The position numbers and the translations under genes were made by a program. From the NCBI RefSeq assembly GCF_014250475.1, contig NZ_CP060204.1, forward strand, positions 1,935,001 to 1,999,000: 64,000 bases of DNA, in the 5' to 3' direction. Below, piece by piece: positions 4,067-30,709 of the stretch (the first letter of the stretch is position 1; each line of letters opens with the position of its first letter). The notes beneath the pieces were generated by a model. That model saw only the letters and a program-made list of their open reading frames with translations. It did no database searches and was not told the origin of the DNA. Source of the stretch: Selenomonas timonae. Lineage in GTDB: Bacteria > Bacillota > Negativicutes > Selenomonadales > Selenomonadaceae.

Positions 4067-4227
4067 GGAATCGCTGATAAAATGAAGTCCATCAGATTGG
4101 TATAGATTTTTTGTCCTATCAAGGAGACAAACCGGACGCATAGCAGAGGCTATGTGGAGGATTTGTCGACGATGAGAGGGCGAAAAAGATGCGCCAAGGT
4201 GATGGTGCTGAATTTATCAGTGCTTCC
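4067..4227 (+). repeat. Dispersed MITE-like repeat, copy A
   Basis: A non-coding element of about 161 bp whose near match lies on the opposite strand at 29491-29652. The two copies agree at roughly 80% of positions by eye. The left end GGAATCGCTGATAAAAT is an imperfect inverted copy of the right end, whose reverse complement reads GGAAGCACTGATAAATT. A 6-bp hairpin CATAGC/GCTATG (4139-4154) is preserved in both copies although the loop differs. The element sits between yebC and ruvC and runs antisense to them. Its right edge touches the yebC terminator. No coding frame is evident. Confidence 0.75.
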
Positions 4228-29404: not shown

Positions 29405-29490
29405 CTTATCTGCTCCATTCATTATGTAAATAGAGCGCGAGGCGCACAGCTCCCCGCGCTTTTCATGCAAATTTTCAATTAGGGTTTTAA

Positions 29491-29652
29491 GAAAGCACTA
29501 ATAAATTCAGCACCGCCATCTTAGCCCATCTTTTTTACCCGCACTTCATCGGCAAATCCTCCACATAGCCCTCGCTATGCGTCAGGTTTGCCTCCTAGTT
29601 CGGACGAAAAAATCTACGCCAATCTGACAGACTTCATTTTATCAACGATTCC
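29491..29652 (-). repeat. Dispersed MITE-like repeat, copy B
   Basis: About 162 bp matching copy A (4067-4227) on the other strand. The minus-strand left end GGAATCGTTGATAAAAT and the complement of its right end, GAAAGCACTAATAAATT, are imperfect inverted repeats. The CATAGC/GCTATG hairpin is kept at 29564-29579. Both ends are flanked by TTAA. The element overlaps the last three codons and the stop of the dehydrogenase gene and lies in the same orientation as the genes around it. Confidence 0.75.
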
Positions 29653-30709
29653 TTAATATCTCAAGGACGGCGTCGCCGATCTCCGCGGTCTTGGCATGCC
29701 CGCCAAGGTCGGGCGTCAATGTCCTTCGCTCCACGAGCAGTGTCTCAATCGCAGTGAGCAGACGCTCTGCCCATACTGGCTCTCCAAGGAATTCCAACAT
29801 CTGACTGACCGACCATATGGATGCCAGTGGGTTTGCAATCCCCTGTCCCGCAATATCCGGCGCACTTCCGTGGATCGGCTCGAACATCGACGGATACTTC
29901 CGTTCGGGATTGAGATTCGCACCAGCTGCGAGTCCCATGCCGCCTGCAATCGCCGCACCGAGATCCGTCAGGATGTCGCCAAAGAGATTGCTTGTCACGA
30001 CAATCTCGAAGCGCCCCGGATCTTTGACAAAGAACATACTCGCCGCATCGACAAGAAGACTGTGTATCTCAACATCGGGATACTCTTTGCCAATCTCCGC
30101 GAAAATTTCATCCCAGAACACCATGGAGTAACGGAGTGCATTCCCCTTGGAGATCGAGGTAAGCGAGCGTTTTTCACGACGTGCAAGCTCGTAGGCATAA
30201 CGTATGACACGTTCGCAGCCATGACGTGAGAAGACGCTCGTCTGCAGTGCCACCTCACGCTCCGTTCCCGTGTAGAGGTGTGCGCCAACATTCGCATACT
30301 CCCCCTCGCTGTTCTCGCGCACAACAATCATATTAATGTCATCCGCTGAGACATCGGCAAGCGGACACGGAGCTCCCTTCAGGAGACGTACGGGACGAAG
30401 GTTGATGTATTCATCGAATCCACGGCGAATCCGAAGTAGGAGATCCCCTAGGGATATGTGATCCGGTACCCCGGGGTAGCCAACGGCTCCAAGATAGATG
30501 GCATCAAAATCCTTGAGGCGATCCAGACCATCCTCCGGCATCATTTCTCCCGTCTTCAGATAGTATTCACAGCCCCACGGGAAATCCTCAAAGGAAACGG
30601 AGAATCCCCCATCCATCTGAGCGATGCCGGAAAATACCTTCTTCCCTTCAGCAATGACCTCGGGGCCTATGCCATCCCCCGCAATGACTGCGATATCAAA
30701 GTACTTCAT
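29642..30709 (-). CDS. Tartrate/D-malate dehydrogenase-type beta-decarboxylating dehydrogenase
   Basis: A 355-residue member of the isocitrate/isopropylmalate dehydrogenase family. The start DIAVIAGDGIGPEVIAEGKK is followed by PWGCEYYLKTGEMMPEDGLD, the stretch that marks the tartrate dehydrogenase/DmlA group rather than LeuB. The motif SNLFGDILTDLGAAIAGGMG carries metal-binding aspartates, and MFEPIHGSAPDIAG binds NAD. The likely reaction is NAD- and metal-dependent oxidation of D-malate or tartrate. LeuB is the main alternative but no leuACD genes are near. The last codons fall inside repeat copy B. Confidence 0.85.
   Translation of the reverse strand: MKYFDIAVIAGDGIGPEVIAEGKKVFSGIAQMDGGFSVSFEDFPWGCEYYLKTGEMMPEDGLDRLKDFDAIYLGAVGYPGVPDHISLGDLLLRIRRGFDEYINLRPVRLLKGAPCPLADVSADDINMIVVRENSEGEYANVGAHLYTGTEREVALQTSVFSRHGCERVIRYAYELARREKRSLTSISKGNALRYSMVFWDEIFAEIGKEYPDVEIHSLLVDAASMFFVKDPGRFEIVVTSNLFGDILTDLGAAIAGGMGLAAGANLNPERKYPSMFEPIHGSAPDIAGQGIANPLASIWSVSQMLEFLGEPVWAERLLTAIETLLVERRTLTPDLGGHAKTAEIGDAVLEILRNR

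Follow-up and report, generated by a model that had tools for sequence, protein, structure and literature searches.

Two copies of a short element in the window

The window, which is the whole stretch of 64,000 nucleotides that was analyzed, carries two copies of a short repeated element. Copy 1 is a full-length element of 161 bp (positions 4067 to 4227, plus strand) that separates two minus-strand genes, which we take to be ruvC-like and yebC-like genes, and is antisense to both. Copy 2, also full length at 162 bp, lies on the minus strand (positions 29491 to 29652) and is sense to its flanking genes. A sequence-only reading of this DNA had described two intergenic segments of about 160 bp, one antisense and the other sense to the neighboring genes, that align over their whole length at about 80% identity by eye. 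The end-to-end alignment gave 83% identity, and both orientations were as described. Copy 1 is intergenic, but copy 2 is not strictly so because the upstream minus-strand open reading frame (ORF) at 29642 to 30709 ends inside its left terminal repeat, which supplies the last codons and the stop.

The ends are imperfect terminal inverted repeats, as had been claimed, but they are 15 bp long with 2 mismatches (GGAATCGCTGATAAA and GGAAGCACTGATAAA) rather than about 17 bp. In copy 1 the left repeat is GGAATCGCTGATAAA (4067 to 4081, plus strand) and the right repeat is TTTATCAGTGCTTCC (4213 to 4227, plus strand). In copy 2, read on the minus strand, they are GGAATCGTTGATAAA on the left (29638 to 29652) and TTTATTAGTGCTTTC on the right (29491 to 29505). 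Copy 2 is bounded by a TTAA target duplication (left, 29487 to 29490; right, 29653 to 29656). Copy 1 has no exact target duplication, its flanks being TCAT and TTTA. Inside the ends is a structured core (copy 1, 113 nt, 4092 to 4204, plus strand; copy 2, 29514 to 29627, minus strand), the portion modeled below as R1/R2. The previously noted central hairpin, whose loop differs between the copies, is present and has a stem of 6 to 7 bp. It reads GCATAGC-AGAG-GCTATGT in copy 1 (4138 to 4155, plus strand) and ACATAGC-CCTC-GCTATGC in copy 2 (29563 to 29580, minus strand; the CCTC loop is as read on the plus strand).

Copy number and insertion history

The Selenomonas timonae genome (G000; 2.35 Mb, one contig) contains many more copies than the two in the window. 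A blastn search with copy 1 gave 42 matches, representing about 40 distinct copies, the majority of which reach the same ends. The best E value for another copy was 4e-67, and the similarity of the two window copies far exceeds chance. The element is 157 to 163 bp long and has no ORF. All 13 of the other genomes examined from the genus have matches, with many copies in 11 and a single match in each of G002 and G013. Exact core matches were found in named genomes of Selenomonas felix, S. flueggei, S. infelix, S. massiliensis, S. noxia, Selenomonas FOBRC6, Selenomonas oral taxon 892, and Centipeda periodontii. The element was unmatched in plasmid and phage collections. One contig of 114.5 kb in IMG/VR, classed as viral, has two exact core matches (L275 and L276) and is possibly host sequence.

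Exact 4-bp target duplications flank 107 of the 188 full-length copies with both ends, compared with 0 to 16 of 188 for every alternative length between 1 and 8 bp and 0 to 4 of 188 at shifted offsets. The target type is YTAR; the duplications are chiefly TTAA, TATA, CTAA, and TTAG, with TTAA predominating. Relatives have empty sites, in which the joined flanks match contiguously, at the positions of copy 1 (G008, G005, and G003) and copy 2 (G008 and G005). A third tested site is empty in G008 and most other relatives. G008 is 92% identical at this third site and 94% and 97% identical at the two window sites. At the third site (L016), G005 holds a copy of a different subfamily at the same target (G005:C1:1308428-1308697, L308), which suggests either that the site was hit more than once or that one copy replaced another.

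The placement of the copies relative to genes is unremarkable. With genes predicted by a simple codon-usage ORF caller, gene-context frequencies of the 188 copies were those of the background, overlap with a predicted gene never exceeded 60 bp, and orientation was random, with 67 sense and 56 antisense copies among tandem gene pairs.

Other arrangements of the same parts were observed in the S. timonae genome. Miniature elements of 36 to 56 bp (G000:C1:77433-77468, 632335-632389, and 594778-594833) consist of hardly more than two terminal repeats. Cores with differing outer sequence are found at G000:C1:497194, 567355, 647804, 704599, 755553, and 1085787. In the predicted folds the outer stems still pair at 497194, 567355, 647804, and 755553 and only partly at 704599 and 1085787, and the cores at 647804 and 755553 sit inside a larger duplicated repeat.

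A partner insertion sequence of the IS5 family

The sequence-only reading had proposed to look for a full-size relative in which these ends enclose a transposase, and such a relative was found. Two copies of a 1.24-kb insertion sequence (G000:C1:1726391-1727637 and 1731276-1732510) terminate in the 15-bp ends of the element, and the second has a TTAA duplication. Both are degenerate, with in-frame stops. Intact ORFs of 332 to 333 amino acids between such ends are present in G002, G005, and G015, and G006 and G007 have open frames of similar length. The predicted transposase matches NCBIfam IS5_4 with 309 bits (cutoff, 140) and has the Pfam domains DUF772 and DDE_Tnp_1. The target of the insertion sequence is of the same 4-bp YTAR type. 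In the region G000:C1:1730265-1732510, an IS5-type end is followed by an ORF, which we take to resemble an IS256-type transposase, and the second IS5-type copy interrupts this arrangement as a nested insertion.

The genome comparisons thus establish the same ends, the same target, exact duplications, empty sites, and a predicted intact transposase in relatives. The element is also short, lacks a transposase gene, and is multicopy, and it therefore has the properties of a miniature inverted-repeat transposable element (MITE) with an autonomous partner, in keeping with the MITE-like, mobile or formerly mobile element that the sequence-only reading had seen in two copies. An IS5-family transposase is the most likely agent of its movement. 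No match to this transposase was found in seven congeners (G001, G003, G004, G008, G009, G010, and G012) that carry 15 to 90 or more copies of the element, and thus another enzyme, or one since lost, has to be assumed there.

The possibility that the element is an internal-deletion derivative of the IS5-family insertion sequence was ruled out because there is no homology between the element and the interior of the insertion sequence, the only interior matches being nonsignificant (E values of 2.8 to 6.6). The two have only their ends in common.

A fold favored on one strand

The apical hairpin is only the tip of a larger structure, a single rod hairpin that takes in the entire element. Predicted fold energies of the full-length plus strands ranged from −60 to −96 kcal/mol, and every complement was weaker. 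Among 181 distinct copies the stem sequences vary and pairing is preserved. Internal loops in which G-A faces A-G are phased along the rod with a spacing of about 10 to 11 nt (29-30/132-133, 39-40/122-123, and 58-59/102-103) and are present in roughly 75 to 95% of copies. Pair sets were derived from single-sequence folds of both strands, as the RNAalifold consensus was too sparse owing to gap shifts. In the both-strand pair set, the positions that are not normally Watson-Crick pairs were G-A at 7, G-T at 6, and A-C at 1.

A hairpin on one strand with conserved mismatches would fit an element moved by an HUH/Y1 transposase of the REP/RAYT or IS200/IS605 type, which would also explain the strand specificity. 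However, elements moved in that manner normally have neither terminal inverted repeats nor target duplications. The presence of both here, the duplications being exact at 4 bp, and of a DDE insertion sequence that shares these ends disfavors a REP/RAYT or IS200/IS605 derivative and leaves this explanation very improbable.

The types of mismatch bear on when the fold is selected. Counted over majority states and common alleles, G-T outnumbered A-C by 13 to 3 (p = 0.02), a count for which the genus offers few independent sites. Private mutations, each confined to one copy, gave 26 G-T to 21 A-C and were equally dense at paired and unpaired sites. It could be argued that the element is an ordinary MITE with a functionless fold, in which shared ancestry and template switching, as in quasi-palindrome correction, match the arms of a palindrome. 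Template switching can yield compensatory changes without selection (PMC8794818), and the private mutations do reveal no constraint on individual copies. However, such correction should remove mismatches, and the tandem G-A pairs persist at fixed positions in most copies. The G-T excess is strand specific, and loops are laid out in a similar way in highly diverged elements from different families, both of which are contrary to a functionless fold. We therefore regard this alternative as unlikely, although it is the strongest of the competing explanations.

The substitution patterns suggest instead that individual copies drift once they have inserted, whereas the lineage that propagates retains the fold. 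Because the G-T bias is absent from private mutations and orientation relative to genes is random, selection on the fold appears to act as the element propagates rather than to serve the host at individual sites. We infer that selection at the level of propagation is the best current reading of the conservation of the fold. A promoter pointing inward from the left end (TGATAAAAT) was also considered as a feature of the element and was dropped because distant relatives do not have it.

Spread of the fold beyond the genus

What the sequence-only reading overlooked is that the body of the element is a conserved, strand-specific fold common to very diverged elements in Negativicutes and other Bacillota. 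A covariance model of the core (R1) matched 45 of 200 sampled genomes of the class, including multicopy sets in other families. In a diverse alignment of 46 distinct rows, 95.2% of cells were paired, compared with 37 to 47% in slid controls, the rows having been fitted to the model, which favors the pairing score somewhat. Both sides had changed in 36 of 40 pairs, and none of 500 shuffles scored as high as the alignment. G-T outnumbered A-C by 124 to 21 alignment cells, which are not independent of one another.

A second model (R2) matched 30 of 398 genomes in a sample of the phylum, some of them multicopy and with bit scores near 77, and the fold thus persists across Negativicutes and into other Bacillota families. 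Several R2 matches in the phylum sample are near-perfect palindromes with little strand difference, so that the membership of the weakest ones is uncertain. In some matches from outside the class, the difference in folding energy between the strands is lost, which counts against a fold kept on one strand.

The fold occurs with more than one type of end. Ends like GGAANCRCTGATNA with 4-bp CTAG, TTAA, or TTAG duplications (YTAR) are found in several genera of at least two families. Ends of the type GGGCGTGTTGATTAA with a TA target are found in G015, in many copies of equal score (L217, L235, L241, L246, L251, and L256) that point to a recent burst. A search of G015 with paired end sequences found no partner insertion sequence of the TA type. 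Further end types also accompany the fold. It is possible, although we hold this only tentatively, that these elements form a Bacillota-wide superfamily in which one folded chassis is used by several transposase systems and the single-stranded fold is actively required for propagation.

No Rfam family describes the element at either gathering or loose thresholds; a known RNA family tied to neighboring genes was the alternative that the sequence-only reading had raised. The Rfam matches obtained were to a T-box, tRNA, and riboswitch in the flanks of elements, together with subthreshold chance matches. In L293, around 1344 to 1665, a subthreshold match to a T-box leader on the opposite strand spans the position of the element, which may have inserted into such a leader.

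A conserved copy in the S10 operon

One old copy (G000:C1:1085787-1085892, L047) lies between rplB and rpsS, antisense to the S10 operon, and has no recognizable terminal repeats. The two genes were named from their translated ends, and the orthologous regions L312 to L324 were compared. In six species, including S. timonae, the core at this site is 90 to 99% identical, compared with 61 to 94% for the adjacent noncoding sequence, and a paired double change converts GGGAGC/GCTC to GGCAGC/GCTG. Five congeners have a short version minus the core, and three have nothing at the site. This copy looks constrained in the six species, and interspecies recombination of the S10 operon could be part of the explanation for its conservation. 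It is a candidate for an element of this kind that a host has adopted.

The retention of this copy, with its compensatory swap, favors the possibility that the element is a host RNA, either a cis-acting regulator or a small RNA, that was spread by a transposon and is used at the sites of insertion. However, the copies in general are randomly oriented, have background context frequencies, and are unconstrained after insertion, and relatives have empty sites for all three insertions tested. Even at the S10 site, the five congeners noted above have lost the core and three have nothing, and the element has no match in Rfam. A general host role is therefore improbable, more so than a functionless fold.

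Proposed mechanism and significance

It is probable, from the comparisons described above, that the element is a nonautonomous MITE moved in trans by an IS5-family transposase, with a body that does not derive from an insertion sequence and a fold kept by selection on one strand during propagation. In the proposed mechanism, the DDE transposase would be supplied in trans by the 1.24-kb insertion sequence, whose 15-bp ends match those of the element. The transposase would recognize GGAANCRCTGATAAA at both ends of the element, which would insert at YTAR sites, mostly TTAA, with duplication of 4 bp. The body between the ends would be a rod hairpin with tandem G-A loops that is selected on one strand during propagation. 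If so, a single-stranded form, more likely RNA and possibly single-stranded DNA, would matter to the element itself. Such a form seems to matter because a fold of one strand is kept during propagation, a conclusion drawn from substitution patterns. A milder G-T excess over A-C would also be expected for single-stranded DNA.

MITEs are usually regarded as short-lived remnants left by deletions in insertion sequences. The body of this element does not come from an insertion sequence, and the fold outlives its own sequence across bacterial families and is not tied to a single type of end. Should propagation depend on the fold, a seemingly passive DNA parasite would have a functional folded strand, and the element would provide a simple system in which to learn why.

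Comparison with known systems

No family of this kind from Selenomonas or Negativicutes was found described in the open-access literature. IS5-family insertion sequences (NCBIfam IS5_4) match the element in their 15-bp ends and 4-bp YTAR target but differ in having an ORF and an interior to which the element has no homology. Correia/NEMIS and ERIC elements resemble it as short MITEs; their transcripts form stable stem-loops, and RNase III cleaves Correia-containing transcripts (PMC10969869). They differ from the element in hosts, ends, and targets. Chunjie of Geobacter uraniireducens is likewise a MITE with conserved ends, direct repeats, and many intergenic copies, but it is 178 to 235 bp, is described in one species, and in the accessible part of that report is presented without mention of a fold conserved across families (PMC10969869).

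The nearest parallel known to us may be bcr1 of the Bacillus cereus group, likened here by description only as MITE-like, intergenic, of similar size, and with a predicted fold. The length of bcr1 is given as 147 bp in the literature and as 167 bp in PMC2267715, a title cited in the latter describes it as specific to the B. cereus group, and bcr1 to bcr3 are often within untranslated regions or operon intergenic regions (PMC3446304). The Selenomonas-type element is unusual in having a conserved fold that is strand specific and that has been reused with different ends. In target, bcr1 differs from the Selenomonas-type elements, with a 5-bp TTTAT duplication in contrast to their YTAR or TA sites.
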